Notes under the pieces: model-generated
The model's input: only the letters and a program-made list of their open reading frames with translations
Told to the model about the DNA's origin: nothing
Database searches by the model: none
Shown: positions 5,939-32,255 of the stretch, one piece after another
Position numbering within the stretch: the first letter of the stretch is position 1
Layout of the letters: each line of letters opens with the position of its first letter
Translations under genes and position numbers: made by a program
DNA from: a virus
IMG/VR virus record: IMGVR_UViG_3300013093_000161
Coordinates: 1 to 32,255 of that record
DNA length: 32,255 nucleotides
Strand: one strand, 5' to 3'

Positions 5939-6553
5939 ATGATTTCTGCAGACCAAATTAAATCTTTGTATCCAAATTCTGATAGTGATATTGTCGAAGG
6001 AATTATCTCTAGCTTAGAAACATTGTCTGAAAAATATGAAATTAATTCACCTCTTCGTCTTGCACATTTTCTTGCTCAGACAGCACACGAATCAGGTGGG
6101 TTCACTGTAATCGAAGAAAATCTTAACTATTCTGAACAAGGTCTTTCTAATATTTTTGGAAAGTATTTCAGAGACAAAGATACAAGTGAATATGCACACA
6201 ACCCAGAAAAAATTGCTAACGTAGTTTATGCAGATAGAATGGGTAATGGTGACACGGATTCTGGAGATGGATATATGTTCAGAGGACGTGGTCTTATACA
6301 ATTGACAGGTCGTTCTAACTATACATCTATGGCAAAAGATCTTGAAGTTGCTATCGACGATATTGTTGCTTATCTTGAAACTCCAGATGGTGCAGTAGAA
6401 TCTGCAGCATGGTTTTGGCATAAGAACAACATTAATCATCTTGCAGATGAAGATAATGCTACTGCTGTTACTAAGAAAGTAAATGGTGGTACTATTGGTT
6501 TAGAAGAACGTCAAGAACATACTGAAAAATTTAAGGAAATTCTTGGAGTCTAA
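5939..6553 (+). CDS. GH19 chitinase-type lysozyme (endolysin or tail lysozyme)
   Basis: A 204-residue single-domain protein of the glycoside hydrolase 19 family. Seen directly: LAHFLAQTAHESGGF (residues 41-55) with catalytic-type Glu51, the second acidic pair EE at 59-60, the substrate-loop YADRMGNGD and the conserved FRGRGLIQLTGRSNY, then ESAAWFW and TKKVNGGTIGLEERQ. GH19 enzymes in phages cleave peptidoglycan glycan strands. There is no signal peptide and no neighbouring holin-like ORF; the gene lies in the tail cluster immediately before a PAAR spike-tip gene, so it may be either the lysis endolysin or a virion lysozyme used at entry. Good Shine-Dalgarno TAGGAG before the ATG. Family call is firm; stage of use is inference. 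Confidence 0.9.
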   Translation: MISADQIKSLYPNSDSDIVEGIISSLETLSEKYEINSPLRLAHFLAQTAHESGGFTVIEENLNYSEQGLSNIFGKYFRDKDTSEYAHNPEKIANVVYADRMGNGDTDSGDGYMFRGRGLIQLTGRSNYTSMAKDLEVAIDDIVAYLETPDGAVESAAWFWHKNNINHLADEDNATAVTKKVNGGTIGLEERQEHTEKFKEILGV

Positions 6554-6558
6554 TTGTT

Positions 6559-6903
6559 ATGCCTTTTGTTGCGAGACTTGGTGACCAAAGTGATCATGGT
6601 GGTGTTATTATATCTGTCACCACTCAATATACAAATGCAGAAGGCAAACTTGTAGCAAGAGTGACTGATCTTCACTCTTGCCCCATTCCTGGACATGGAA
6701 TTACACCTATTCTTACTGGATCAGGAAACTTTTTTACAGAAGGCCACATTACTGCAGTTGATGGAAGTGTGTGTGGATGTGGAGCAAAAATTATTGCAAG
6801 TGCAACAAAAACAGCAGCACCATTAGAAGTTCCTACAAATGCAGGAACATTTGGTGGTCCTACTACTCTTGGTCCATCAAGCAATCCATTTAAACTTGCA
6901 TAA
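6559..6903 (+). CDS. PAAR-domain tail spike tip protein (T4 gp5.4-like)
   Basis: A 114-residue protein whose first 80 residues follow the PAAR pattern: ARLGDQSDHGG at the start, then DLHSCPIPGHGITPILTGSGNFFTEG and a late GSVCGCGAKI. His13, His39, Cys41, His46, Cys72 and Cys74 are candidate ligands for the single metal ion that staples the tip of the PAAR trimer. In T4 the equivalent protein gp5.4 caps the central spike that pierces the outer membrane. The C-terminal Pro/Gly-rich tail is probably disordered. It starts five bases after the GH19 gene stop, whose end supplies the GGAG ribosome-binding site, so lysozyme and spike tip are translated as a pair. Confidence 0.85.
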   Translation: MPFVARLGDQSDHGGVIISVTTQYTNAEGKLVARVTDLHSCPIPGHGITPILTGSGNFFTEGHITAVDGSVCGCGAKIIASATKTAAPLEVPTNAGTFGGPTTLGPSSNPFKLA

Positions 6904-18482: not shown

Positions 18483-18495
18483 AACTTAAGATTCA

Positions 18496-18530
18496 GGGCT
18501 GTGATAAATACTTATATCGCAGCCCTTTTT
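18496..18530 (+). terminator. intrinsic terminator after gene 19, late promoter spans stem and loop
   Basis: Ten-base-pair stem GGGCTGTGAT (18496-18505) with ATCGCAGCCC (18516-18525), one U-G wobble, ten-base loop AAATACTTAT, then TTTTT. The late motif GATAAATA (18503-18510) runs from the stem top into the loop, so a transcript initiated from it would not form the terminator. Confidence 0.85.
18503..18510 (+). promoter_or_regulatory. T4-like late promoter motif (GATAAATA) in terminator
   Basis: GATAAATA at the top of the terminator hairpin, about 36 bases before the portal ATG. It would let the head genes (20, 67 ...) be expressed independently of the 18-19 transcript. Confidence 0.55.
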
Positions 18531-21534: not shown

Positions 21535-22058
21535 ACAAAGACGTTAACTCAGTTGTAACAGAAGGTATTGTTGGAGCTATAAAAAATATAGCTTCCAACA
21601 CTGTTAAAAAAACTGTGTCTAATGCAAAAAAGAACGTAGCTAATTATGCTTCTGCTGGGTTATACAGCAAAGCAAAAAATGCTATTAATAGTATAAAAAA
21701 AGCTGACAAAAAAGACAATCAGAAAAAACCTGTTTCATCTGGTTCTCTTAAACAAAGAGCTAACAAAAATAGAATAATTAAAGCTGTGTCAGCAGAACAA
21801 ACAATTGTAGATAACAATATTATTACAGAAGCTGATGAGCCTACTAATTTTAAAACAAGATTAAATTTAGTAAAAAATTCAACAAAGGCTGCCTATGTAA
21901 AAAGCCTTAGACATCCTGTAATGAAGACTTATTCTACTCATATGAAAATGAAAGGACCTAAATCTCCTTTCGTAAGTCAATTGAACAAAGACAAACCAGT
22001 TTTTTCTGAAAACGAAATTAAAACATTAGAATCTATATTAAAAGGTTTAGGGGAGTAA
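21531..22058 (+). CDS. basic unknown protein in the prohead core cluster
   Basis: A 175-residue Lys-rich protein, start overlapping the previous stop (ATGA, 21531-21534). The N-terminal half has amphipathic helices with repeated KN, KK and SNAKKN; the C-terminal half (FKTRLNLVKNSTKAAYVKSLRHPVMKTYSTHMKMKGPKSPF) is also basic. IITE followed by A near residue 100 resembles the hydrophobic-x-Glu sites cut by gp21-type proteases. A DNA-contacting internal head protein is plausible; I do not recognise the family. The ATG has no good Shine-Dalgarno, so it probably depends on coupling. Confidence 0.6.
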   Translation: MNKDVNSVVTEGIVGAIKNIASNTVKKTVSNAKKNVANYASAGLYSKAKNAINSIKKADKKDNQKKPVSSGSLKQRANKNRIIKAVSAEQTIVDNNIITEADEPTNFKTRLNLVKNSTKAAYVKSLRHPVMKTYSTHMKMKGPKSPFVSQLNKDKPVFSENEIKTLESILKGLGE

Positions 22059-22059
22059 T

Positions 22060-22755
22060 ATGTCAGACATTTTAAAAACAATTAAAGAAGCTATTGAAGA
22101 AGCAAGATACAATTTTGCTAGATCAACAAGAGAAAAGAATCTTCGCAAAATGTCACATAAAGACTCTATCAAGACTCCAATGAGAGTTGGTATGTCTAAA
22201 AAGGAAATGGAAGCATCTTACAAGGATGACCCAAAGTACAAGCAACACCTTGCCAAAATGAAGGCAGAGGAATACGAATTGGAAGAAGCAAAGCGTGGTC
22301 GTCCTAAAGCATCTGGTGAAGAAAGCGAAGGCGATCGTGAGCACATTATTGTTCAGTACAGAAAAGCAGAACGTATTCCTGGCAAGAAAATTGAACATGC
22401 AGATAAGTCATCACATGAGTTTCCAAAAGAGCATTACAGAAAAGCTCTTGATATGCATGTAAAGATGAAGCCAGCTGAAAAAGAAACATTTGAAAAAGAA
22501 CTAGATGCATCACCAGAAAGAGCAAAAAATGCTGTTGCTGGAAAACCAGCTCCTAAGGCTGCTCCTAAAATTTCATTGGGTTCTATGAAGAAAGAATCAT
22601 ACGAAATTAATGAACAAATAATGGCAGAAGAAATTTTACTAAATAAATTATACGAGAATTTATCTGAAACTAACCAAAAAATCTTTGAAGAAATGATTGA
22701 AACACAAGATGGATTGGATAGTTTATTAGAGTTTGCACATAAGCAAGGGCTATAA
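22060..22755 (+). CDS. charged unknown protein before the prohead protease
   Basis: A 231-residue protein rich in Lys, Glu, Met and Pro. The middle (KRGRPKASGEESEGDREHIIVQYRKAERIPGKKIEHADKSSHEFPKE, cut here for length) joins an AT-hook-like KRGRPKA at residues about 76-82 with a small mixed domain, followed by a Pro/Ala/Lys linker (GKPAPKAAPKI) and a C-terminal acidic helix (EEILLNKLYENLSETNQKIFEEMI). AT-hook-like GRP cores bind AT-rich DNA minor grooves, which would suit an internal head protein. Begins two bases after the previous stop with GGGGAG as ribosome-binding site. Family unknown. Confidence 0.6.
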   Translation: MSDILKTIKEAIEEARYNFARSTREKNLRKMSHKDSIKTPMRVGMSKKEMEASYKDDPKYKQHLAKMKAEEYELEEAKRGRPKASGEESEGDREHIIVQYRKAERIPGKKIEHADKSSHEFPKEHYRKALDMHVKMKPAEKETFEKELDASPERAKNAVAGKPAPKAAPKISLGSMKKESYEINEQIMAEEILLNKLYENLSETNQKIFEEMIETQDGLDSLLEFAHKQGL

Positions 22756-22759
22756 GTTA

Positions 22760-23407
22760 ATGAAGTTAATTACAGAAGTAACAGAAGAAGTAAAGTACAT
22801 TACCGAAGAAGGTGCCAATGGTAAGAAGAACCTTTACATTGAAGGTATCTTTTTGCAAGGTGACATCCAAAATAGAAACGGAAGAATGTACAGAGCTGAT
22901 GTTTTGGAAAAAGAAGTCAATAGATATCGTACAGAGTCTATTGATAAAAACCGTGCATATGGTGAACTAGGACATCCTTCTGGACCTTCTATTAACCTTG
23001 AACGTGTTTGCATGATGATTAAGTCATTACACAGAGAAGGTAGCAACTTCATTGGTAAAGCTAAGATTATGGATACTCCTTACGGAAATATCGTGAGCAA
23101 TCTTATGGCAGAAGGTGCAACACTTGGTGTTTCATCAAGAGGCATGGGTTCTTTGAAAGAAGTAAATGGAATTCAAGAAGTACAAGATGATTTCTATCTA
23201 GCTACTGCAGCAGATATCGTTGCAGATCCTTCCGCTCCTGATGCCTATGTAAATGGTGTTATGGAAGGCGTAGAGTGGGTTTGGGACAATGGTATTATTA
23301 AGCAAAAAGTTGTAGAAGCTCACAAAGAAGAAATTAAAAAGGCCTCAAAAGCTGAACTAGCGGAAGCCAAAATCAGAGTATTTAAACATTTTCTTTCAAA
23401 ACTATAA
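22760..23407 (+). CDS. 21: prohead core protease gp21
   Basis: A 215-residue serine protease (T4 gp21 about 212). The ATG at 22760 gives MKLITEVTEEVKYI and has AAGGG ten bases upstream; an in-frame TTG at 22733 inside the previous gene is rejected. Family motifs: IEGIFLQGDIQNRNGRMY, the catalytic His in YGELGHPSGP (His72), and the Ser in LGVSSRGMG (Ser125/126), the herpes-type assemblin fold. It cleaves scaffold, core and capsid proteins after hydrophobic-x-Glu sites during head maturation. Lies four bases after the upstream gene. Confidence 0.93.
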   Translation: MKLITEVTEEVKYITEEGANGKKNLYIEGIFLQGDIQNRNGRMYRADVLEKEVNRYRTESIDKNRAYGELGHPSGPSINLERVCMMIKSLHREGSNFIGKAKIMDTPYGNIVSNLMAEGATLGVSSRGMGSLKEVNGIQEVQDDFYLATAADIVADPSAPDAYVNGVMEGVEWVWDNGIIKQKVVEAHKEEIKKASKAELAEAKIRVFKHFLSKL

Positions 23408-23411
23408 TTTA

Positions 23412-23419
23412 CATAAATA
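23412..23419 (+). promoter_or_regulatory. T4-like late promoter motif (CATAAATA)
   Basis: CATAAATA between genes 21 and 22, 26 bases before the gene 22 ATG; fits NATAAATA. Confidence 0.6.
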
Positions 23420-23444
23420 ATTCATATAACTTAAGGAGATTCTA

Positions 23445-24575
23445 ATGAGTAACGAAACAAATCAAGTAGAGGTTAACGAAGCAGATGCTGCTTCTAACAT
23501 GGCCTCAATTGCTATGAAGCCAACAGGTATTTCACGTACCGATCTCATGGCAAAGATGGTTGACTATGCTATGAAGGCAAGCAAAGAAGACCTTGCTTCT
23601 TTCGTTGCAAGCATTGGTTCAGCTGAATACAACCCAGCATCTTCTACTCCTGCAGAAAGATTTGATTCTGTAGAAGCAGCTGCTAATGCAACTGGCGATC
23701 AATCAGAAAAGAACAAAGCATCAATTAAATCATCAGGTAAGCATAAAGATGAAATGCAAAAAGAGCCAAGTGCTCCAATGCATCCTACAATGCTTGCAAA
23801 AGAATCTGTAGAAGCTGACCTTGCTCTCCTATTTGGAGACTCAGAAGATCTTACAGAAGATTTCAAGTTCAAGGTAAGCACTCTTTTTGAAGCAGCAGTT
23901 TCAACAAGAGCAAATCTTGAAATCTCAAAGATTCAAGAAGATTTTGAAACACGTCAAGCACAGCTTGAAGAAGAATTTAATACTTCTTTAGAAGAAGCTA
24001 TTACAGAAATTAAGGACGAAATGGTTGAGAACGTAGACAACTATCTCAACTATGCAGTTGCAGAATGGATTAGTGAAAACAAACTTGCTATTGAGAACAA
24101 CATTCGTACACAAATGGCAGAGTCATTCATGGCAAGCCTAAAGGATGTTTTCACAGAACATTATGTTAATATTCCAGAAGACCAAGTAGATGTTGTTGAA
24201 GCAATGGCTGCTGAACTTGAAGAAGTTAAGGCACGTCTAAATGAAACAACTGAAAAGAACATCGAACTTTCTAAGACTGTAATTGAAAATGCAATCGAAG
24301 AAGTTAAGAATGAAATGTCAGAAGGAATGACAGACACTCAGAAGGATAAGTTCTTGAAGCTTTCAGAAGCTGTAGACTATTCTGATGTTGAAGAATTTCG
24401 CAAGAAGGTTTCCATTATAAAAGAAACATACTTCACTAAGTCAATGACTAATGAAGTAAAGGTTGCAAAGGATCAACTTCTTAGCGAAAGCGTGGAGGAA
24501 CCAGAAAAGGTAGCCTCAATTGATCCAGATATGCAAGTATATGTTTCTTCTATTTCTAAATCTCTTAAAAAGTAA
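23445..24575 (+). CDS. 22: prohead scaffold protein gp22
   Basis: A 376-residue acidic, helix-rich protein (T4 gp22 about 269, longer here as in aquatic relatives). The first 60 residues contain GISRTDLMAKMVDYAMKASKEDLASF, then a low-complexity linker, and from about residue 125 a family-type core: ALLFGDSEDLTEDFKFKVSTLFEAAV, a long coiled coil (ARQAQLEEEFNTSL-like heptads), VDNYLNYAVAEWISENKLAIE and the C-terminal FRKKVSIIKETYF. It forms the inner core around which gp23 assembles and is degraded by gp21. Strong AAGGAG ribosome-binding site. Confidence 0.92.
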   Translation: MSNETNQVEVNEADAASNMASIAMKPTGISRTDLMAKMVDYAMKASKEDLASFVASIGSAEYNPASSTPAERFDSVEAAANATGDQSEKNKASIKSSGKHKDEMQKEPSAPMHPTMLAKESVEADLALLFGDSEDLTEDFKFKVSTLFEAAVSTRANLEISKIQEDFETRQAQLEEEFNTSLEEAITEIKDEMVENVDNYLNYAVAEWISENKLAIENNIRTQMAESFMASLKDVFTEHYVNIPEDQVDVVEAMAAELEEVKARLNETTEKNIELSKTVIENAIEEVKNEMSEGMTDTQKDKFLKLSEAVDYSDVEEFRKKVSIIKETYFTKSMTNEVKVAKDQLLSESVEEPEKVASIDPDMQVYVSSISKSLKK

Positions 24576-24580
24576 TTTTA

Positions 24581-24588
24581 ACTAAATA
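24581..24588 (+). promoter_or_regulatory. variant late promoter motif (ACTAAATA) before gene 23
   Basis: ACTAAATA, one mismatch from NATAAATA, 36 bases before the gene 23 ATG and bracketed by a 6-bp inverted repeat (ATTTTA 24575-24580, TAAAAT 24587-24592). The same CTAAATA variant recurs at 26023-26029. Gene 23 would be expected to have a strong late promoter, which argues that the variant works. Confidence 0.45.
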
Positions 24589-24623
24589 AAATATTATAAT
24601 AACCCTCTAAAGGAGACACACAA

Positions 24624-25997
24624 ATGCAAGGTTTTAACGAAGAATTAGTTGCAAAGTGGAAGCCAGTATTGGAACATGCTGATCTTCCAAGAATTGCAGA
24701 CGCTCATAAGCGTAACGTAATTGCTACACTTCTCGAGAATACTGAGAAGTCAATTAAGGAAGATCGTGCTTCTCAAGGTATGACTAACCTTTTTGAAACT
24801 GGCATCAACGCAGTTGGTACTGGTGGTTATTCAGGTCAGGGTGGTGCTGGTGTTGCTGGTTACGATCCAATCCTTATCTCACTTATCCGTCGTGCAATGC
24901 CTAACCTAATTGCATATGACGTTTGCGGCGTTCAGCCAATGACAGGCCCAACTGGCTTGATCTTTGCAATGCGCTCACAATATGCTAACTCAACTAACAA
25001 GAATGGTGAAACATTCTATGATGAAGTTAACACAGGTATGTCAGCTGGCTTCAATGGCACTGGCGTATTTGGAGTTGGTGCTAACACTACATTTGGTGGT
25101 AACAACGTAGGTACAACACCTGACAATACTCTTGGTGTTTCAGCCTATAACTTCCAGACTGGTGCTACTACATCAACTGTTGAAGGTTTTGGTTCAACTT
25201 CAACATTCCCAGAAATGGCCTTCTCAATTGACAAGGTTTCAGTTACAGCTGTATCACGTGCTCTAAAGGCAGAATACACTATTGAACTTGCACAAGATCT
25301 AAAGGCAGTTCATGGTCTTGATGCTGAAACAGAATTGGCTAACATCCTTCAGTCAGAAATTCTTGCTGAAATTAACCGTGAAGTTATCCGTACTATTAAC
25401 ATCACTGCTCGTCAAGGTGCTACAGATGGAACTGTTACAGCTGGTGTCTTCGATCTTGACACAGACTCAAACGGTCGTTGGTCAGTTGAAAAGTTCAAGG
25501 GTCTTATGTTCCAGCTTGAAAGAGAAGCTAACAAGATTGCAAAAGACACACGTCGTGGCAAGGGTAACGTCATCATCTGTTCATCAGATGTAGCATCTGC
25601 TCTTCAGATGGCTGGCGTTCTTGACTATACTCCTGCTCTTGCTTCAAACAATCTAGCAGTTGACGACACTGGTAACACTTTCGCAGGTGTTCTAAATGGT
25701 CGCTTTAGAGTATACGTAGATCCATATACTACAGGTAACTATATGACTGTAGGTTATAAGGGTTCAAATGCATTCGATGCTGGTATCTTCTACTGCCCAT
25801 ACGTTCCACTACAAATGGTTCGTGCAGTTGGTCAGTCAGACTTCCAACCAAAGATTGGATTTAAGACTCGTTACGGAATGGTTGCAAATCCATTCGCACA
25901 GTCTTATCAAGGCAATCCACAAACTTCAAACTTTGGTCAACTACTTACTAACACTAATAGCTACTATCGTAGAGTTATTGTTAACAACATCATGTGA
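24624..25997 (+). CDS. 23: major capsid protein gp23
   Basis: A 457-residue HK97-fold capsid protein of the T4 gp23 family (T4 521; aquatic T4-like phages are shorter). Family landmarks: GYDPILISLIRRAMPNLIAYDVCGVQPMTGPTGLIFAMR, the AEMAFSIDKVSVTAVSRALKAEYTIELAQDLKAVHGLDAE region, REANKIAKDTRRGKGNVIICSS, and the C-terminal FDAGIFYCPYVPLQMVRAVG...KTRYGMVANPF. LFE followed by TG at residues 56-60 is a plausible gp21 cleavage site removing the propeptide (T4 cleaves after residue 65). Strong AAAGGAGA ribosome-binding site. Codon choice looks more restricted than in the flanking endonuclease, as expected for a highly expressed gene. Confidence 0.96.
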   Translation: MQGFNEELVAKWKPVLEHADLPRIADAHKRNVIATLLENTEKSIKEDRASQGMTNLFETGINAVGTGGYSGQGGAGVAGYDPILISLIRRAMPNLIAYDVCGVQPMTGPTGLIFAMRSQYANSTNKNGETFYDEVNTGMSAGFNGTGVFGVGANTTFGGNNVGTTPDNTLGVSAYNFQTGATTSTVEGFGSTSTFPEMAFSIDKVSVTAVSRALKAEYTIELAQDLKAVHGLDAETELANILQSEILAEINREVIRTINITARQGATDGTVTAGVFDLDTDSNGRWSVEKFKGLMFQLEREANKIAKDTRRGKGNVIICSSDVASALQMAGVLDYTPALASNNLAVDDTGNTFAGVLNGRFRVYVDPYTTGNYMTVGYKGSNAFDAGIFYCPYVPLQMVRAVGQSDFQPKIGFKTRYGMVANPFAQSYQGNPQTSNFGQLLTNTNSYYRRVIVNNIM

Positions 25998-26002
25998 GTC
26001 AC

Positions 26003-26017
26003 TACACTATCAGTGTA
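26003..26017 (+). other. small hairpin after gene 23
   Basis: TACACT (26003-26008) pairs with AGTGTA (26012-26017) around a three-base loop, six bases after the gene 23 stop and just before the main terminator. Could protect the 3' end of the capsid mRNA; might also be chance. Confidence 0.35.
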
Positions 26018-26021
26018 AAAA

Positions 26022-26029
26022 GCTAAATA
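26022..26029 (+). promoter_or_regulatory. variant late promoter motif (GCTAAATA) overlapping the gene 23 terminator
   Basis: GCTAAATA overlaps the base of the 5' arm of the hairpin at 26025-26056. Initiation a few bases downstream would give RNA that lacks most or all of that arm and so exposes the GGGAG ribosome-binding site of the endonuclease. Confidence 0.45.
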
Positions 26030-26060
26030 CTCCCAGAGGAAACTTTGGGAGTATTTTTTT
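26025..26060 (+). terminator. strong terminator after gene 23, also covers the endonuclease ribosome-binding site
   Basis: AAATACTCCCA (26025-26035) pairs perfectly with TGGGAGTATTT (26046-26056), extended by G-U and A-U pairs to a GGAAAC loop, and followed by a run of T up to 26060. GGGAG in the 3' arm is the only Shine-Dalgarno for the ATG at 26061. Confidence 0.88.
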
Positions 26061-26759
26061 ATGAATAAAGAAAAATGTGGGTTTGTATATTTGTGGTATG
26101 ATAAAAAACATAAAAGATTTTATATAGGATGTCATTGGGGAAGAACAGATGATGGTTATATATGTTCTTCTAACTGGATGAGAGATGCATATAATAGACG
26201 ACCATTGGATTTTAAAAGACGCATACTAAAAAATAATATTTTAAAAAGATCTGATATTTACATAGAAGAACAAAAATATCTAGATATGATTAAACCTGAA
26301 GAAATTAAAAAAAGATATTATAATTTATGTCTTTCATCAAAAGATTTATGGCATCAATATCCTGATAAAGTTCCATCTATAGGACAAAAGATATCAGCTA
26401 AAAAACTTGGTAAGTCTACTGGACCATGTACGCCAGAAAGAGCATTGAATATTTCAAATGCTAAAAAAGGAATTAATTTTTCTGAAGAACACAAACAAAA
26501 ATTGAGTGAAACGAGAAAAGGTAAACCAAGGTCCGAGGAATCCAAAAGAAAAACCACAGAAACATTGAAGGCAAAATGGGCTTCAGGAGAGTTTAATAGA
26601 CCAAGAGCAGTTCCTAAAACTATAATGACAAGAGAAGATCAAGATAAACTTAATTCTAAATTACTAAAAGAAAGATGGGCTGACCCTATATGGACAGCTA
26701 ATCAAAAAGAAAAGCTTAAACAAGCTCATCAAAAACGTAAAGGTATAAATAATGTATAA
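26061..26759 (+). CDS. GIY-YIG homing endonuclease with NUMOD3-like DNA-binding repeats
   Basis: A 232-residue free-standing homing endonuclease. The catalytic domain shows GFVYLW (residues 7-12, the GIY element), FYIG (20-23, the YIG element), GYICSSNWMRDAY (32-44) with conserved Arg, and the metal-binding Glu in DIYIEEQKYL (69 or 70). Residues about 108-170 contain NUMOD3-type repeats: QKISAKKLGKSTG, then FSEEHKQKLSETRKGKPRSEESKRK, which contact DNA. The C-terminus is basic and includes KAKWASG. Such genes sit beside conserved genes and spread by cutting alleles that lack them. The ATG is immediately after the T-run of the gene 23 terminator and its GGGAG lies in that hairpin, so translation from upstream readthrough RNA should be low. 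Confidence 0.9.
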   Translation: MNKEKCGFVYLWYDKKHKRFYIGCHWGRTDDGYICSSNWMRDAYNRRPLDFKRRILKNNILKRSDIYIEEQKYLDMIKPEEIKKRYYNLCLSSKDLWHQYPDKVPSIGQKISAKKLGKSTGPCTPERALNISNAKKGINFSEEHKQKLSETRKGKPRSEESKRKTTETLKAKWASGEFNRPRAVPKTIMTREDQDKLNSKLLKERWADPIWTANQKEKLKQAHQKRKGINNV

Positions 26760-26788
26760 AAGAAGCAGGGACAACCTGTTCATACTAA

Positions 26789-26812
26789 AAAAGGGCGCTT
26801 CGGCGCCCTTTT
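26789..26812. terminator. bidirectional intrinsic terminator with UUCG loop
   Basis: AAAAGGGCGC (26789-26798), loop TTCG, GCGCCCTTTT (26803-26812): ten perfect pairs closed by the very stable UUCG tetraloop, with a T-run at the end on both strands. It separates the rightward structural block from the leftward accessory operon and can stop both. Confidence 0.93.
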
Positions 26813-26848
26813 CTTTTACCTAATATTCTAACTTATGACCTGCAATGT

Positions 26849-26986
26849 CTATATTTTTAAATGGAGTAGGAAGCTCAGATACAGCCAAAGTAATTTCTGG
26901 TCTGAGACACTACAATCCTTAATAGCTTCAATAAAGTGAGCTGGTAGGAGTTCCTTTAAACCTTCTACGTATTCTTCTACTGTCAT
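26849..26986 (-). CDS. small unknown protein, probably frameshifted near its C-terminus
   Basis: A 45-residue ORF whose ATG overlaps the preceding stop (TAATG at 26984-26988), with AAGGAAAC as ribosome-binding site. The first 28 residues (MTVEEYVEGLKELLPAHFIE...) read as a normal small acidic helical protein, but after about residue 29 the sequence becomes unlike protein (LLWLYLSFLLHLKI). The -1 frame from about 26905 continues with a natural-looking tail EITLAVSELPTPFKNIDIAG and ends HKLEY at the stop 26820-26822, eight bases before the terminator. A one-base loss, sequencing error or programmed -1 shift would restore a protein of about 55 residues. No family recognised. Confidence 0.5.
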   Translation of the reverse strand: MTVEEYVEGLKELLPAHFIEAIKDCSVSDQKLLWLYLSFLLHLKI

Positions 26987-27222
26987 TATTTTGTTTCCTT
27001 ATAAAGCCAAGCATAAAACCCATCAGCAATGGTATGTACATCTGAGCTTGTCATAATATTACCATCAACTTTATTGTTAGTATTGGATACAAGTTCATTA
27101 ATATGCTTACACCACTCTACAGACTTATCTAAAGCCCATTGGCGATTCCAAATACGATCATTTTCCTCTCGACGAGCAATACTTTCAGGTGTTTGTTTAG
27201 GAACTTCAAAATCATCACTCAT
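26986..27222 (-). CDS. small unknown protein of leftward operon
   Basis: A 78-residue protein. The start at 27222 (MSDDFEVPKQTPESIARREENDRIW) overlaps the preceding stop as ATGA and has AAAAGGA upstream; an in-frame ATG at 27243 inside that gene is less likely. Sequence is hydrophilic and helical with two Trp-rich spots (RIWNRQWALDKSVEWCKHI) and a C-terminal DVHTIADGFYAWLYKETK. No signal peptide, membrane helix or known motif. Co-translated with the exported protein upstream and the small gene downstream. Confidence 0.6.
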   Translation of the reverse strand: MSDDFEVPKQTPESIARREENDRIWNRQWALDKSVEWCKHINELVSNTNNKVDGNIMTSSDVHTIADGFYAWLYKETK

Positions 27223-27509
27223 TCTGTTATAATCCTTTTCCAATTGCCATCTTTACGTTTCAACCAAAGATTACCATCTTCTCCTACTGCCATTGATACT
27301 TGCTTATCAGGATCGTACTGAGGCATTGTATTAAACATAATAGGTCCATTACTAAGTCTCATCATCTCACCATCTGGTTTCTTTGCACCATGAAGTGTTA
27401 GGTTTACCGAGTTATTCAATGGTGTACCAGTCACTTCTTCTTTAGCAAAAGCAGCTACCGCCATTAAAGGCGATAGTGCAATTGCTCCAAACAAACTTCG
27501 TCTATTCAT
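27219..27509 (-). CDS. small exported protein with twin-arginine-like signal peptide
   Basis: A 96-residue protein. Residues 1-22 form a signal peptide: MNRRSLFGAIALSPLMAVAA then FA, with an Arg-Arg pair directly followed by Ser-Leu-Phe (Tat-like) and an AFA cleavage site before KEE. The mature 74 residues are polar (TPLNNSVNLTLHGAKKPDGE ... VGEDGNLWLKRKDGNWKRII) with a short 'DGNLWLKRKDGNW' beta-hairpin-like end. Translation is coupled to the SPFH-like membrane gene by an ATGA overlap, and GGAGG lies just upstream, so the two products may meet in the periplasm. Phage-encoded Tat-type signals are uncommon. Sec export is the alternative, because the n-region is very short. Confidence 0.7.
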   Translation of the reverse strand: MNRRSLFGAIALSPLMAVAAFAKEEVTGTPLNNSVNLTLHGAKKPDGEMMRLSNGPIMFNTMPQYDPDKQVSMAVGEDGNLWLKRKDGNWKRIITE

Positions 27510-28693
27510 TGTTTAACCTCCGCTTTAGGTGCTAGATTAGAAAGAGTTTCTAACATCTGAGGTGTCACTACGATAGGCAATCCATGCTTATCCAAACCAC
27601 TACCGAGACCTTCTTGAACTCGAAGACCAGCAACTGCTTGAAGAATAGGAAGTGCAGAAGCAAGCTTAGTAGCAATATAACGATCGTTAACAGCTTTCTG
27701 AACTGATTGATCAAACTCAAACGTATCTGCCCATCCAATAAAGTCTAGAGTAATACCAACAGAAGCAAAGTATTCTTTTACGCTCTTTTGAATACTTTCC
27801 ATCATAGGTACCATATCTTCATTAGCCTGATCAAATGTACGTTTGCCGATTTCAGCACAAACAAGTGTCTGAACCTTCTTACGGCCTACATCATCCATAA
27901 CATTAGCCAATGAACGCCCATAATAAACAGATGTAAAGATTACTTGTGGATCATTACGATTACCTTGTTGTGGAACTACACCAAAGCGGTAAAGAAACTT
28001 AGCCGCATCAACTTCTGATACAGATGCGCCAATAGAAACACCTGCTGTAATATTCAAACCTTCCTTTGATTGACAAGGAAATGATTGATCTGAAGAAGCA
28101 GTTCCACGATTAGCAGACTTTACCCATTCACGAGAGTAGGGGGTACGATCAACAATAATCAAACGACCTGTAGGTACATAAAAGTCCCAATTCAAAAAGC
28201 CGCCTGAATTACTCAACTTAGCATGAGGAACAATAAAACGCTTTGCAGCAATCTTATTATCACTCAAATATGATTCAGAATCAAACTTGGCTTGAGTATC
28301 TTTGTTTGCACCAACATCTGGAATCCAAAATGCTGATTCATTAGGAAGGATGGTATATGCTTCTGTCTTATCAACAGTATCAGCATATGCAAATGCCTGT
28401 TGAGGATGTGCAATCATAACAAGCAATAGTAATGCTGTAGATGCTGCAATAAACTCTTCAAGCTTTTTCTTCCAGATAACAAACAATGACATAAGGAATC
28501 CAAATGTTGCCAAGAAATATACTGTATTATTCATTGTAAACACAAAGCTCGTTGTTAGATAAGAAGCTGCACTATTATCAAATTGATTACCAGCAACAGC
28601 TCCTGTAATCAAAGTAGCCAAAGGGTTGATAACGCTAATTACTGCCATATAGACAAAAAAAGCGATAGTTGTTTTAATTAAATTACTGATCAT
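27506..28693 (-). CDS. three-helix membrane protein with SPFH/band-7-like domain
   Basis: A 395-residue protein. Hydrophobic segments at about residues 5-34, 46-74 and 82-102 are likely membrane helices; between the second and third lies a positive KKK. From about 172 the soluble part resembles the SPFH/band-7 (stomatin-HflK/C) domain: YVPTGRLIIVDRTPYSREW, then GLNITAGVSIGASVSEVDAAKFLYRFG, then a helix with RKKVQTLVCAEIGKRT and EYFASVGITLDFIGWADTFEFDQSVQKAVNDRY, the usual strand-helix end of the fold. Such proteins build large membrane rings and modulate proteases or lipid domains. The gene overlaps both neighbours (11 bases and ATGA). Fold assignment is from pattern, moderate; function in the phage, for example protecting the infected cell membrane, is speculation. 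Confidence 0.65.
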   Translation of the reverse strand: MISNLIKTTIAFFVYMAVISVINPLATLITGAVAGNQFDNSAASYLTTSFVFTMNNTVYFLATFGFLMSLFVIWKKKLEEFIAASTALLLLVMIAHPQQAFAYADTVDKTEAYTILPNESAFWIPDVGANKDTQAKFDSESYLSDNKIAAKRFIVPHAKLSNSGGFLNWDFYVPTGRLIIVDRTPYSREWVKSANRGTASSDQSFPCQSKEGLNITAGVSIGASVSEVDAAKFLYRFGVVPQQGNRNDPQVIFTSVYYGRSLANVMDDVGRKKVQTLVCAEIGKRTFDQANEDMVPMMESIQKSVKEYFASVGITLDFIGWADTFEFDQSVQKAVNDRYIATKLASALPILQAVAGLRVQEGLGSGLDKHGLPIVVTPQMLETLSNLAPKAEVKQ

Positions 28694-28886
28694 GATTTAC
28701 TACCTCAAGTTGATCAAAAACGTATCCTGATGATATGAGAAAATTCTCAAAATAACTTACGATTGTATCAAGTGTCAAATCTGTTCCGTTAAACGACATC
28801 TCAATAGTTGTATCTGGATAATTTTCCAGACCACTATTGACCATATCCATATAGAATCTATATGTTACTCTATAATCATCATTCAT
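28683..28886 (-). CDS. small unknown protein of leftward operon
   Basis: A 67-residue protein beginning MNDDYRVTYRFYMDMVNSGL and ending QLEVVNHDQ. It looks like one alpha/beta domain of strands and one helix (LDTIVSYFENFLISSGY). It overlaps the preceding gene by ATGA and the next by 11 bases; its last codons contain GAGGTAGTAAA, the ribosome-binding region for the membrane protein that follows. No known motif. Confidence 0.6.
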   Translation of the reverse strand: MNDDYRVTYRFYMDMVNSGLENYPDTTIEMSFNGTDLTLDTIVSYFENFLISSGYVFDQLEVVNHDQ

Positions 28887-29317
28887 AGCTTTACTACCTC
28901 CAAATGGTCACCTACGACCTTTAAATTGACAAGATTTGTTTTCTCAGAAAGACCTGTTCTCAAATAATCTCGGCCTCCATCTATCCATACTGTTTTGTCT
29001 GGACTAACACGGTAGTCATGACGATATCGTGAATAGATAATATCACCGTTATCTGCTCTTACACCAACAATTGGTTTTTCTGTAGCAGAGATTCCATTAG
29101 TAATCATTGGCACGTTGTTCTCATCAAGATACAAACCAAAATAGTTTGAACCTTGTGGATGAGCTTGTTCTGTATAGAAAATTGCAGCAGGAAAGTTAGC
29201 CCATCCTCCATCTTTTGCTCTAAGGCAACATTCGAATACATACGTTGCATTATACTTTTGTTCGATCTGGCGAATGCCTTCTGGCTTCAAAAACGAACAC
29301 TCATTGAGAATAGTCAT
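28883..29317 (-). CDS. unknown protein of leftward operon
   Basis: A 144-residue mixed alpha/beta protein, starting MTILNECSFLKPEGIRQIEQ. Visible: KYNATYVFECCLRAKDGGWANFPAAIFYT, then an ordinary beta-rich core (SNYFGLYLDENNVPMITNG, VGVRADNGDIIYSRYRHDYR) and an end VVGDHLEVVKL. Two adjacent Cys near residue 30 are unremarkable without a partner motif. Four-base overlaps on both sides. I do not recognise the family. Confidence 0.6.
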   Translation of the reverse strand: MTILNECSFLKPEGIRQIEQKYNATYVFECCLRAKDGGWANFPAAIFYTEQAHPQGSNYFGLYLDENNVPMITNGISATEKPIVGVRADNGDIIYSRYRHDYRVSPDKTVWIDGGRDYLRTGLSEKTNLVNLKVVGDHLEVVKL

Positions 29318-29640
29318 TTACGTTTCTTTCGTGGTTTAGCATAAAACTTCTGATAAAGCTTCTCTAATCCTGGCTTATCAGGATGCTTGTGGATCCATTG
29401 TCCTGTATAAGGACTAAATTCCTCAACAAAAAACTTATCTAATTTTTGGTTGCCAGTAGCCAATTGTTGGTTTACGAGTAGAGCCATACTATCAAATTGA
29501 TGATCAGGCATAATAGAATCAGAATGCACTTCGTAAGCATAGGCTGCAACAGATAGTTTGATACGAAGATGTCGCTCTTTTTCAATCTCGCTACCCCATG
29601 CAGAAGGAACGGTACTTACCATAAATTGATCTAAACTCAT
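29314..29640 (-). CDS. protein resembling the N-terminal (Ia) subdomain of NAD-dependent DNA ligase
   Basis: A 108-residue protein. Residues about 30-60 (SVAAYAYEVHSDSIMPDHQFDSMALLVNQQL) show the 'Y.Y....s.i.D..FD.L...L' spacing of the LigA Ia subdomain, which binds the nicotinamide part of NAD. Tyr34, Tyr36, Asp46 and Asp50 are the candidates for the conserved positions. The C-terminal part (FSPYTGQWIHKHPDKPGLEKLYQ) and basic tail KPRKKRK differ, and there is no adenylation domain, so it is not a ligase by itself. It may be an NAD- or DNA-associated regulator, or only a helical look-alike. It starts in the ATGA overlap with the SWIM gene. Confidence 0.5.
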   Translation of the reverse strand: MSLDQFMVSTVPSAWGSEIEKERHLRIKLSVAAYAYEVHSDSIMPDHQFDSMALLVNQQLATGNQKLDKFFVEEFSPYTGQWIHKHPDKPGLEKLYQKFYAKPRKKRK

Positions 29641-29948
29641 GCAGCCTCTGCTATATGTTTACAAGACCTACGGAATTGAAATGCAGGACAGGTACAGCTT
29701 TTGTATTTGGTCCCAATAGTGACAGTATACACATTGCCTTTAGATCCTGCAACAGTTATTTCACGCTCTACAGGAGCAGCAATAAACTTAGCCTCAGAGC
29801 CATCTATTGAGATGATTTCAGACTTTGGAATAATACGAACACGAAACTTAAGCTCATTAGTTGTAAGAGCAATTGCATCATATTCAACCCAACGAGGAGT
29901 AGCAACAAGCTCTCCTTCCCAACGACCAGTCTTAGTTTGAACTTGCAT
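29637..29948 (-). CDS. SWIM zinc-finger protein
   Basis: A 103-residue protein with start chosen at 29948 (MQVQTKTGRWEGELVATP), which has AAGAGG eight bases upstream; a longer in-frame start at 30002 lies inside the previous gene. The C-terminus YTVTIGTKYKSCTCPAFQFR then RSCKHIAEAA is a clear SWIM motif, CxC-x8-CxH with Cys85, Cys87, Cys96 and His98, which binds zinc and in other proteins mediates DNA or protein contact. The first 60 residues are beta-rich (WVEYDAIALTTNELKFRVRIIP). It is a minimal SWIM protein without the helicase or transposase partners usual in cellular versions; a regulatory or DNA-binding role is likely. Confidence 0.85.
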   Translation of the reverse strand: MQVQTKTGRWEGELVATPRWVEYDAIALTTNELKFRVRIIPKSEIISIDGSEAKFIAAPVEREITVAGSKGNVYTVTIGTKYKSCTCPAFQFRRSCKHIAEAA

Positions 29949-30186
29949 ATAAAGCCTCTTGATCTGCTTCCTCGATAGAATTGAGAGCAGTTTGAATAGC
30001 AATCTTGATATAATTGTTGACCTGATGCCTAGAAAAAGATTTGCTCAAAGCTTCGTAAATGAAAATATCAAAATCCTCTAGCAGATAATCTTGATAACCA
30101 TCAAGCTGTTCCCAGGCCTCAAATACTTCCTTAGTCACAGGAATATTGACGGTGATTTTAAGATTGTGATCGTGTTGATCAACCAT
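29932..30186 (-). CDS. unknown acidic protein, first gene of leftward operon
   Basis: An 84-residue acidic protein. The start at 30186 (MVDQHDHNLKITVNIP) is chosen because GGAG lies seven bases before it; the ATG at 30198 lies within that ribosome-binding region. A short strand (LKITVNIPVTKEVFEAWEQLDG) precedes helices with DYLLEDFDIFIYEALSK and ends EEADQEALYASSN. It resembles many small early phage proteins of unknown role. It is about 20 bases downstream of the left outward promoter, so it should be among the first genes expressed. Confidence 0.65.
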   Translation of the reverse strand: MVDQHDHNLKITVNIPVTKEVFEAWEQLDGYQDYLLEDFDIFIYEALSKSFSRHQVNNYIKIAIQTALNSIEEADQEALYASSN

Positions 30187-30203
30187 TGTTATCTCCATTG
30201 CTC

Positions 30204-30257
30204 ATATTATTATAATAGGATAAGTTGGATAAAAAGGCAACGATTTTATTAAAAAAT
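30204..30257. repeat. left arm of 54-bp inverted repeat (promoter copy 1)
   Basis: Read on the minus strand this arm matches 30667-30720 at 51 of 54 positions; the three differences fall in the promoter spacer (CAAC here against GAGT there). It holds a complete promoter plus the upstream AT block ATTTTTTAATAAAAT. Confidence 0.9.
30212..30240 (-). promoter_or_regulatory. leftward sigma70-like promoter (early operon)
   Basis: -35 TTGCCT (30240-30235), 17-base spacer, -10 TATTAT (30217-30212); an A/T-rich UP-like block lies just upstream. It should drive the operon 30186 to 26820. Confidence 0.75.
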
Positions 30258-30265
30258 ATTGCCTT
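30231..30265 (-). terminator. weak terminator for the gene at 30550-30287, overlapping the leftward promoter
   Basis: On the minus strand AAGGCAA (30265-30259) pairs with TTGCCTT (30240-30234), with inner ATTTT/AAAAT pairing, followed by a T-run to 30231. The 3' arm is the -35 box of the next promoter, so terminator and promoter share bases. Confidence 0.5.
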
Positions 30266-30286
30266 GATATTATTAGGTTTTTTTGG

Positions 30287-30550
30287 TTAATTTATTTGAG
30301 ATTTTGGTTGTAATAATGAAGGACAATTTTGAAGGAAATAATCTGAAAAAGGATCAATTGGGATGTATTCTTTTTTGGATAATATTAGGATTTGATTGAA
30401 AGAAGAATCTAGGATTTGGTCAAGTTGGTTTTTTTGTGATTCTGTGAGGAAATCTGAATCTAGGAGGTTTTCTAGAATATCTAAAAGAAAATTTGTTTGT
30501 GATTGGGTAGAAGGGATTAATTGGGTGTAGTTTTTAGGTTGTTTGGTCAT
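30287..30550 (-). CDS. unknown Gln/Asn/Leu-rich small protein between divergent promoters
   Basis: An 87-residue protein with an excellent ribosome-binding site (AAGGAG). It opens MTKQPKNYTQLIPSTQSQTN, has a helical core (FLLDILENLLDSDFLTESQKNQLDQILDSSFNQILILSKKEY) and ends LLQPKSQIN. It has no basic patch or helix-turn-helix. It is read leftwards from a weak AT-rich promoter-like region (TTGATT then an AT block, 30600-30570) and lies inside the region bounded by the 54-bp repeats. Its base composition is even more AT-rich than its neighbours, and its strand is the same as the accessory operon. Not recognised. Confidence 0.6.
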   Translation of the reverse strand: MTKQPKNYTQLIPSTQSQTNFLLDILENLLDSDFLTESQKNQLDQILDSSFNQILILSKKEYIPIDPFSDYFLQNCPSLLQPKSQIN

Positions 30551-30584
30551 TTTTCTCTCCTTGTTATTTTATTAATATCACATA

Positions 30585-30681
30585 ATTTTATTAAAAAATC
30601 AACAAAAAAGTGCCCTTGAAAACACAGGGAAATTTTTAAGAAAAAACCCTGTAATTTCAAGGGATGATTTTTTAATAAAAT
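30585..30681. repeat. imperfect palindrome with central hairpin between divergent promoters
   Basis: Outer arms ATTTTATTAAAAAATCA (30585-30601) and its reverse complement near 30665-30681 flank a stem of 17 positions (30613-30629 with 30647-30663, two mismatched positions) around a 17-base A/T loop. GGG is followed by short T-runs on either strand, so it can act as a weak bidirectional terminator or a protein site. Confidence 0.75.
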
Positions 30682-30720
30682 CGTTGCCTTTTTATCGAGT
30701 TTATCCTATTATAATAATAT
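30667..30720. repeat. right arm of 54-bp inverted repeat (promoter copy 2)
   Basis: Partner of 30204-30257, 51 of 54 matches on the opposite strand. Shares its AT block ATTTTTTAATAAAAT with the palindrome at 30585-30681. Confidence 0.9.
30684..30712 (+). promoter_or_regulatory. rightward sigma70-like promoter
   Basis: TTGCCT (30684-30689), 17-base spacer, TATTAT (30707-30712), near-identical to the leftward copy at 30212-30240. Drives the gene at 30738 and those beyond. Confidence 0.75.
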
Positions 30721-30737
30721 AAGAAAGGAAAGCAAAT

Positions 30738-30923
30738 ATGAAAGAATTATGGATTAAAATAGTCGATCAGATGGTCGAAGAATTGTTGGATTCAAATCCT
30801 GGTATGAATTGGTCAACTGCATACAATTTGGTTTGCAATAATTCAGCTGAGATTGATAATCGTCTACAGGATTATCTTGGAGATGCTGCAGATTATTATC
30901 ACGATATGGCAATGGATCGATAA
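30738..30923 (+). CDS. small unknown acidic protein
   Basis: A 61-residue protein with ribosome-binding site AAAGGAAA. Opens MKELWIKIVDQMVEELLDSN and has PGMNWSTAYNLVCNNSAEIDNRLQDYLGDAADYYHDMAMD. Helical, acidic; similar tiny early ORFs are common in T4-like phages. The -10 region of the promoter is about 25 bases before its start. No recognised family. Confidence 0.6.
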   Translation: MKELWIKIVDQMVEELLDSNPGMNWSTAYNLVCNNSAEIDNRLQDYLGDAADYYHDMAMDR

Positions 30924-30931
30924 AATAACTG

Positions 30932-30960
30932 TTGACGTTTTTATTAAAAAACCATATACT
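30932..30960 (+). promoter_or_regulatory. strong rightward sigma70 promoter
   Basis: TTGACG (30932-30937), 17-base spacer containing TTTTATTAAAAAA, TATACT (30955-30960): five of six matches in each box. About 25 bases before the gene at 30986. Confidence 0.8.
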
Positions 30961-30985
30961 AATATTATGGCAATGGAGATATAAG

Positions 30986-31204
30986 ATGTTTAACGATGTT
31001 TTGGAAATCAAGGATATGATTGATCTGATTATTCGCGAATCAGATGGTCTTACTCATTATGGTGTTGTCAAAGAACTCGAGTACATTTCAAATAAGATTA
31101 AGCAAAAGATTGACAAAGAAGATGCCGAGTATGATCGATATCTTAACGAACTTGCTCTTTCGTATGAAATGTATGATGATGCAATGATCTCAGTAGGAGC
31201 TTAG
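30986..31204 (+). CDS. small unknown helical protein
   Basis: A 72-residue protein. The ATG at 30986 (MFNDVLEIKDMIDLIIRESDG) has TGGAG seven to eight bases upstream; an in-frame TTG at 30932 is in the promoter and is rejected. Mostly long amphipathic helices, acidic (YISNKIKQKIDKEDAEYDRYL, then SYEMYDDAMISVGA). No signal or known motif. It stops one base before the following ATG, suggesting co-translation of the next three genes. Confidence 0.65.
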   Translation: MFNDVLEIKDMIDLIIRESDGLTHYGVVKELEYISNKIKQKIDKEDAEYDRYLNELALSYEMYDDAMISVGA

Positions 31205-31205
31205 T

Positions 31206-31316
31206 ATGAAAGACATTATAACAATCTTTGTTGTATATCTTCCTTTCTTTGAGATGGGTATATTTTTGTTGGCATGCTGTGCTGTATATGAGTTTTATAA
31301 AGGAGCCAAACAATGA
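31206..31316 (+). CDS. 36-residue single-pass membrane peptide
   Basis: MKDIITIFVVYLPFFEMGIF is followed by LLACCAVYEFYKGAKQ. Residues about 4-29 form one hydrophobic helix (with an internal Glu at 16), after a short polar N-terminus and before a basic C-terminus, so an N-out orientation is favoured. The start is 2 bases after the previous stop. The end overlaps the next gene by ATGA, and its final codons supply the AAAGGAG ribosome-binding site of that gene. Small membrane peptides of this type are common in early regions of phages, for example host-control or inhibition proteins; the role here is unknown. Confidence 0.65.
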   Translation: MKDIITIFVVYLPFFEMGIFLLACCAVYEFYKGAKQ

Positions 31317-31717
31317 CTCTTGTTACTCTTCCTGCTGGTCGCTATTTGATTGGTGATCTTTGCTATCGTGGAGATCAAATCTGGGATTCAATGATTGACA
31401 ATATCGATGGCAAGGCTCATAAACTTCCCTCTGATCGTTTTTATGTAATTTTAAAAACTAAGTGGGGTGATGGTAGTTATTTTGATTTCGATCGTAATGA
31501 GTATTGGGTTGATTCTGGTACGATTGGTATTATGGAATGGGATGGTGATGATATGAGCGGTCCCAACGGTCGTACTTTTGATTTCATGACAGAGTTTGCA
31601 GTATTTGAAGACAAAGGTGATCTTCACTTTGGTGCTGTTGTGGTTGAAACCGATCCACAGTATGATGAACAAGTTGACTACGAAGAAACAGACAACGCTT
31701 TAGAAGAGGAATTCTAA
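31313..31717 (+). CDS. unknown protein with Pro-Ala-Gly-Arg-Tyr type N-terminus
   Basis: A 134-residue acidic beta-rich protein. The N-terminus LPAGRYLIGDLCYRGDQIW is a motif seen in many T4-like phage and some bacterial small proteins ('PAG.Y.IGD.CY') of unknown function, and the remainder (FYVILKTKWGDGSYFDFDRNEYWVDSGTIGIMEW) continues the same strand-turn pattern. The tail EDKGDLHFGAVVVETDP...EETDNALEEEF is very acidic. AAAGGAG ribosome-binding site. Only one base separates it from the next gene. Likely an accessory/early protein; no enzymatic motif. Confidence 0.65.
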   Translation: MTLVTLPAGRYLIGDLCYRGDQIWDSMIDNIDGKAHKLPSDRFYVILKTKWGDGSYFDFDRNEYWVDSGTIGIMEWDGDDMSGPNGRTFDFMTEFAVFEDKGDLHFGAVVVETDPQYDEQVDYEETDNALEEEF

Positions 31718-31718
31718 G

Positions 31719-32255
31719 ATGCCTAATTGGTGCTATAATCAGTTTACGGTCGTTCATGAAGACCAGCAAATGATCGAGCGGTTTGTAAAAGCAGTTGAAG
31801 AAAATAAATTGCTTAATGAATTCATTCCTATGCCAAAAGAGTTGGAAGATACGACATCTCCTTCTCGTGATACCAATGAACAATTAATTGAGAAATATGG
31901 TTACAATAACTGGTATAACTGGAGAATAGATAACTGGGGAACAAAGTGGGATATTTCATCTGGCGCTGTTGTTGAATTAATTGGCAACGAAGCTTTTGGT
32001 AGTTTCTCCACTGCATGGTCACCTCCTATTCCTTTCTTCGAAGCGTTGACTGATTTGGGATTTGATGTTAATATTACATATGATGAAGAAGGTATGGGAT
32101 TCATGGGAATATACAATTCAGTAGAAGGTGAAATATACCAGGAATATCCAAACTTTGAGGATCCTGATTGGCGTAAAGGGATTATCAATCCGGATATCTT
32201 AGCTTTGTTAGATCAACGATATGACACGTGGCTCGAAGAACAAGAAGAGCTTGAA
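31719..32255 (+). CDS. YubB/DUF1281-like (Api92-type) protein, 3' end outside window
   Basis: The frame from ATG 31719 is open for 179 codons to the window end. MPNWCYNQFTVVHEDQQMI with Trp-Cys-x-Asn and then, near residues 61-85, YNNWYNWRIDNWGTKWDISS, followed by FGSFSTAWSPPIPFFEALTD and a later DVNITYDEEGMGFMGIY, is the pattern of the DUF1281/YubB ferredoxin-like proteins carried by plasmids and phages. Their function is unknown. The last visible part (LDQRYDTWLEEQEELE) suggests the protein is nearly complete. Begins one base after the previous stop, so it belongs to the same rightward operon. Confidence 0.75.
   Translation, partial: MPNWCYNQFTVVHEDQQMIERFVKAVEENKLLNEFIPMPKELEDTTSPSRDTNEQLIEKYGYNNWYNWRIDNWGTKWDISSGAVVELIGNEAFGSFSTAWSPPIPFFEALTDLGFDVNITYDEEGMGFMGIYNSVEGEIYQEYPNFEDPDWRKGIINPDILALLDQRYDTWLEEQEELE

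Follow-up and report, generated by a model that had tools for sequence, protein, structure and literature searches.

The window analysed here (the whole stretch of 32,255 nt, IMG/VR virus record IMGVR_UViG_3300013093_000161) contains gene 23, which encodes the major capsid protein, and downstream of it the gene of a free-standing homing endonuclease of the GIY-YIG type. A hairpin with a T-run lies between the two genes (Table 1). A GFVY...YIG motif is visible in the endonuclease, and the matches to the Pfam family SegE_GIY-YIG lie under the curated cut-off (E = 1.2 for the window protein, 0.066 for the best of its relatives). Comparison by hhalign demonstrated a weak relationship to the T4 segB protein (E = 1.4e-4) and nothing for the I-TevI protein, and a search among solved structures with the endonuclease profile yielded no relative. 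The gene looks mosaic: its N-terminal part is nearest to L082, and its C-terminal part, together with the hairpin, is nearest to L081, which suggests recombination between cassettes. Elsewhere in the window, a gene at 27506-28693 (minus strand), which converges with the capsid operon of this T4-like phage, encodes a protein of 395 aa with an SPFH/Band_7 domain. Positions 6660-6731, within an ORF at 6559-6903, match the Rfam family P10 (Pseudomonas sRNA; 41.2 bits at a cut-off of 37), possibly a resemblance of coding sequence.

Table 1. Coordinates of the features discussed in the text
Feature	Position	Strand	Basis or remark
Hairpins in the gp19-gp20 gap	window 18495-18526; L302-L318, L321, L322, L330, L344, L347, L349, L350, L360-L376
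Late-type promoter motif of gene 23, ACTAAATA	24581-24588	+	sequence; TAAATA enrichment before genes
Gene 23, major capsid protein	24624-25997	+	Pfam PF07068, E = 1.4e-143
Inserted cassette (spacer, hairpin leader, endonuclease gene) at the gene 23 stop codon	25998-26759	+	flank match to endonuclease-less relatives
Late-type motif GCTAAATA	26022-26029	+	overlaps the base of the 5' arm; TAAATA invariant in 26/26 aligned locked leaders
Hairpin 5' arm	26025-26038	+	carries anti-Shine-Dalgarno CTCCC
Predicted late transcription start	26035 (about 26033-26037)	+	inside the 5' arm, motif at -13 to -6; from T4 late promoter geometry (PMC1524935)
Hairpin 3' arm	26043-26056	+
GGGAG, the only Shine-Dalgarno box of the endonuclease gene	26047-26051	+	within the 3' arm, 9 nt before the ATG at 26061
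T-run (7 T), putative terminator tail	26054-26060	+	abuts the start codon at 26061
Free-standing GIY-YIG-type homing endonuclease, 232 aa	26061-26759	+	PHROG 314 homing endonuclease, E = 2.1e-19; phiM12 homologues annotated GIY-YIG_SegABCDEFG
Native gene 23 terminator, today 3' of the endonuclease	26789-26812	+	same hairpin and preceding AAGCAGG..ACCTG directly after gene 23 in L001, L002, L004
Leaders of gp13-type genes, among the matches listed (IMG/VR pattern scan)	L182, L196, L200, L202, L204, L214, L215, L218, L225, L230, L236, L238, L252
Carriers of the second structured RNA	L035:4330-4394, L078:6531-6596, L097:2940-3003, L100, L123, L124, L135, L145, L152, L162

If positions 25998-26759 are omitted, the flanks in the window align with the end of gene 23 and its 3' region in endonuclease-less relatives (L001, L002, L004). 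Hairpin and endonuclease thus came in together, leaving gene 23 with a putative terminator on either side of the guest. In relatives lacking the endonuclease (L001-L005), a motif resembling AAGCAGG..ACCTG comes immediately after gene 23, together with a GC hairpin that carries a T-run; the window has both elements downstream of the endonuclease stop codon. The order of elements 3' of gene 23 in many other relatives is terminator, late promoter, and then the Shine-Dalgarno box and the next gene. Inside the cassettes, the promoter precedes the hairpin.

The 35-nt core of the element, from TAAATA to the T-run, has exact copies in six other IMG/VR contigs, each directly after gp23, and the core hairpin is identical in L081, L133/L134 and L170-L172. 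In L170 (about 6368-6402, minus strand), L171 and L172 the identical core is followed by 42 codons left over from an endonuclease gene, with MEKYGF fused to the C-terminal end. These are decayed cassettes, in which the element has outlived its gene.

The arms AAATACTCCCA (26025-26035) and TGGGAGTATTT (26046-26056) form 11 Watson-Crick pairs without mismatches. The perfect 11-bp stem, the T-run, GGGAG and the late-like motif all occupy the positions given for them in the initial annotation, but the real stem is longer, as it extends through G-U, A-U and G-C to 14 pairs with the loop GAAA (26039-26042). The RNA of 25998-26075 folds with -25.0 kcal/mol compared to -10.0 +/- 2.7 for shuffled sequences (z = -5.6), and none of 200 shuffles is as stable. 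The hairpin has the sequence make-up of an intrinsic terminator, a GC-containing stem followed by a U-run, and ranks among the top two candidates in a terminator scan of 22000-32255. Only three intergenic hairpins with T-runs were found by script on the plus strand of 1-26850: this one, the one at 26789 and, upstream of the portal gene, a third at 18495; two of the three have TAAATA in the 5' half. The GC core of the stem is modest (five GC pairs) and one A interrupts the U-run (UAUUUUUUU), and thus termination may be partial.

The TAAATA motif is a real promoter-like signal in the window. On the plus strand of 1-26800, 11 of its 21 copies precede one of 29 gene starts by 15-60 nt. Such positions account for 5% of all bases (binomial p about 1e-9), and none of the eight reverse-strand copies falls there. 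The motif at the base of the hairpin departs from the T4 late consensus TATAAATA at -13 and -12, a mismatch regarded in the initial annotation as the weak point. However, the T4 motif occupies positions -13 to -6, with position -13 variable in relatives, and the late promoter of phage Aeh1 was described as CTAAATA (PMC1524935), so the mismatch is minor. Moreover, NCTAAATA is common among endonuclease leaders, and L081 carries the perfect TATAAATA at the matching place, with the identical core hairpin. The initial annotation also placed the same variant before gene 23: CTAAATA is indeed common to both sites, but the G is absent from the gene 23 motif. Neither gp55 nor gp33 was identified within the 32-kb IMG/VR fragment; both are annotated in Sinorhizobium phage phiM12, which has leaders of this kind.

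Endonuclease leaders were collected by protein similarity only, which after removal of duplicates yielded 67 distinct sequences; 11 more, found by a DNA pattern, were kept separate. TAAATA occurs at most 120 nt from the start codon in 61 of the 67 homology-found leaders, and 30 have the layout of the window, with the promoter in the 5' arm and the Shine-Dalgarno box in the 3' arm. The latter include leaders of Sinorhizobium phages phiM12, phiM19 and phiN3 and of Rhizobium phage RHph_I1_18. Among the phiM12 genes inspected, four of five GIY-YIG/mobE-type genes have such a leader, and none of three HNH genes.

The pairing itself is conserved. The ten lower stem pairs are paired in 97.7% of cases in 26 aligned locked leaders, and five of them have changed on both sides (18 cells), against 2.4 pairs and 4.3 cells in shuffles. 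When the partner is slid by one to three columns, at most one both-side-changed pair is left. The loops vary across the locked leaders. The computed probability that the Shine-Dalgarno box is unpaired does not exceed 0.17 in 27 of the 30 long RNAs and ranges from 0.15 to 0.90 in the predicted late-start RNAs; for the window it rises from 0.00 in the readthrough RNA to 0.62 in the predicted late-start RNA. The layout shared by 30 leaders, the compensatory changes in the stem and the like arrangement in T4 I-TevI and segB all speak for the earlier suggestion that the site would be exposed in late RNA, from which the 5' arm is missing, and locked in readthrough RNA.

Other leaders deviate from this layout. 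Leaders of class B (L033, L051, L064, L092, L098, L099 and others) have TAAATA and a T-run hairpin followed by a separate Shine-Dalgarno box; leaders of class C have TAAATA, a hairpin, and a second structured RNA covering the Shine-Dalgarno box. In a tree labelled by leader type, locked, separate-SD and second-RNA types swap repeatedly (15 changes), with support too weak to order gains and losses. The second RNA of class C, located directly upstream of the endonuclease genes, is a conserved structure spanning about 55 nt, with GTCYRTCGCG..AYRGAC followed by ATCT..AGAT, which encloses the Shine-Dalgarno box. It consists of three helices with 98.5% pairing, and seven pairs have changed on both sides. 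Rfam at gathering scores had no match at the leaders in the window and the class C loci, and a permissive Rfam scan of one class C leader gave chance-level matches only.

The T-run, defined as at least six T in the eight bases after the last GC pair, is linked to the gene 23 site. Of the locked leaders, 18 of the 19 that follow gp23 have one, against two of the 12 elsewhere, the latter group including T4 I-TevI and segB (Fisher p = 1.5e-5, kinship ignored). This distribution supports the initial proposal that the hairpin is a putative terminator of gene 23, and it is what one expects if a terminator is favoured behind the capsid gene. The lock is kept without a T-run in L157 (gp18|gp19), L163, L164, L165, L167 and phiM19, and the T-run hairpin is kept with the Shine-Dalgarno box outside in class B leaders such as L033, L051 and L064. 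Since each is kept without the other, lock and terminator are separable functions. A strict dependence of the T-run on the operon end had to be softened, as in the pattern-found set T-runs also occur at gp18|gp19 and gp19|gp20 insertions, inside the tail/portal operon (L192, L206, L208).

It is likely (with a probability of about 0.68) that the leader of this mobile cassette unites a terminator, a Shine-Dalgarno lock and a nested late promoter in one hairpin of about 40 nt. The cassette has inserted upstream of the native gene 23 terminator, separating it from the gene, and has the hairpin as its leader. The RNA of gene 23 would form the whole hairpin and the U-run and mostly terminate there; readthrough RNA would retain the hairpin, and pairing of CUCCC with GGGAG would block translation of the endonuclease. 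A late promoter (gp55-type, core TAAATA) within the 5' arm would start RNA at about 26035, and this RNA would be translated. Since it would lack most of the 5' arm, it could neither terminate nor lock. The endonuclease would thus be driven by a promoter of its own and shielded from a late transcript that is among the strongest in the phage. The comparison of leaders gives strong support to the lock and the nested late promoter, and suggests as well that the long T-run is an added terminator, placed after the strongly expressed capsid gene. The initial annotation spoke of a late-promoter switch. The nested promoter is supported, but the I-TevI-like timing is not: gene 23 is itself late, hence the block cannot serve the distinction of early and late expression as in td. 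Most likely, the hairpin insulates the endonuclease from capsid-level transcription, following a logic of insulation and dosage.

It is unlikely that only a lock and a late promoter are present, as in T4 segB and I-TevI, and that the T-run is an A/T-rich spacer causing no appreciable termination. The layout in T4, whose T-runs are short, is identical, and the lock is retained in leaders lacking a T-run; but a spacer would explain neither the concentration of T-runs after gp23 nor the separate-SD leaders at that site (L033, L064, L092), which retain such a hairpin although they have no lock that it could serve. That the hairpin only terminates gene 23, the promoter-like motif and the Shine-Dalgarno box being coincidences of A/T-rich arms and the endonuclease being made from readthrough RNA, is quite improbable. 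Indeed, the site passes the terminator scan, and a motif-like arm is partly forced, because AAATA is complementary to the T-run. However, the native terminator still stands 3' of the endonuclease, L064 and similar leaders keep TAAATA beside the stem and not in it, lock and motif persist without T-runs, and covariation of the stem keeps the Shine-Dalgarno box paired.

Hairpins at mRNA 3' ends can protect the RNA, and a stabiliser or processing site in the RNA of gene 23, hardly affecting the endonuclease, would agree with that; nevertheless it is barely conceivable, given that the same leader precedes endonucleases at places other than gp23, operons included (L157 at gp18|gp19, L295 at gp19|gp20). 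Finally, the endonuclease could bind the palindrome as a DNA operator and repress its own late promoter. I-TevI does so by way of an operator that overlaps the late promoter of its gene (PMC2988022), and leaders recombine with genes, since an identical core hairpin stands beside diverged proteins. Compensatory changes in the stem and variable loops point instead to pairing in RNA, and thus an operator in place of the RNA element is highly improbable; operator action could be additional to the RNA role.

Late motifs nested in hairpins were also observed away from endonucleases. In the gp19-gp20 gap of the window and of relatives, the late motif (GATAAATA/TATAAATA) is embedded in a hairpin, either in the loop or in the 5' arm. 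Of 35 relatives bearing TAAATA in this gap, 30 have it nested within a stem with a minimum of seven pairs, with about 20 different stems, compared with 1.3% for shuffled flanks. The T-runs of these hairpins are mostly weak and the Shine-Dalgarno boxes lie outside; these nested promoters may be the more novel lead. Neck genes of the gp13 type in other phages have TATAAATACCCCTAGGAAACACTAGGGGTATTTTTTATG-like leaders that combine a late motif, a T-run hairpin and the start codon, with no endonuclease. The promoter-hairpin-ATG design occurs upstream of at least a few other structural genes as well, among the matches listed in the IMG/VR pattern scan. In the window itself, gp13 (11488) is preceded by TATAAATA and no such hairpin. 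A generality of nesting for TAAATA was considered and dropped, as in the whole phiM12 genome three of 65 copies are nested in hairpins, no more than for control hexamers.

The initial annotation bound the hairpin to an adjacent endonuclease gene. This holds only in part, in view of the core with a gene remnant in L170-L172 and the same architecture, with other sequence, at gp13-type genes. Such hairpins without an intact endonuclease weaken the exclusivity of the association, not the mechanism. We consider it possible, at somewhat less than even odds, that late promoters nested in terminators or structured hairpins serve T4-like phages repeatedly as insulators, by which upstream RNA is stopped or silenced and the gene's own RNA, free of the 5' arm, is exempt. 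This reading would take in the endonuclease, gp19-gp20 and gp13-type leaders, and if true, would describe a very compact insulator.

The leaders described here extend a textbook switch of T4 from a few genes of coliphages and Aeromonas phages to a broad environmental family of T4-like phages, along with several Sinorhizobium and Rhizobium phages that can be cultured. Their variants constitute a natural experiment separating lock from terminator. The element also illustrates how a selfish gene can remain independent of the gene in front of it, even where that is the most strongly expressed one of the phage.

Sequestration of the ribosome-binding site, lifted by a late promoter within the structure, was described for I-TevI, I-TevII, I-TevIII, segB and mobE of Aeh1; in I-TevI, late RNA starts within the hairpin and the site is freed (PMC2988022). 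The T4 leaders taken from NC_000866, AATAAATACTTCTATATTTAAAGAGGTATTT-ATG of I-TevI and CATAAATACTCTTAGAAATAGGAGATATTT-ATG of segB, have the same order and register of elements as the window. Thus the lock in the window is of a known kind: its Shine-Dalgarno box is paired in a stable hairpin of the readthrough RNA, the start predicted for its promoter would omit the 5' arm, and the gene is that of a homing endonuclease. A close parallel in layout, the leader of the intron-encoded GIY-YIG gene I-TevI, likewise has TAAATA in the 5' arm, the Shine-Dalgarno box in the 3' arm and a hairpin abutting the ATG. However, I-TevI resides in a group I intron, its hairpin blocks early and middle transcripts, and its T-run is short, whereas the window has a free-standing gene, late RNA arriving from upstream, and a run of seven T that completes a putative terminator. 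The free-standing GIY-YIG gene segB shares the leader order and register, with a weak protein relationship, but is situated in a tRNA cluster and has no T-run terminator. In Aeh1, the free-standing HNH gene mobE also has its ribosome-binding site sequestered by an RNA hairpin (PMC2988022), but it belongs to another nuclease family and another place (nrdA). For T4 mobE, the terminator is part of the coding region and not of the lock. In Aeromonas phage 25, a stable hairpin is located directly upstream of the seg-type gene seg43(25) (PMC2988022); its ribosome-binding site is outside the hairpin and not sequestered, and thus it resembles the class B leaders L033 and L064 and not the window. The combination of terminator and lock for a free-standing endonuclease, emphasised initially, is therefore new in its long T-run but not in the free-standing lock, known from segB and Aeh1 mobE (PMC2988022). 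By every testable feature, the element in the window appears to be of the I-TevI/segB kind, and what it adds is a putative terminator tail.
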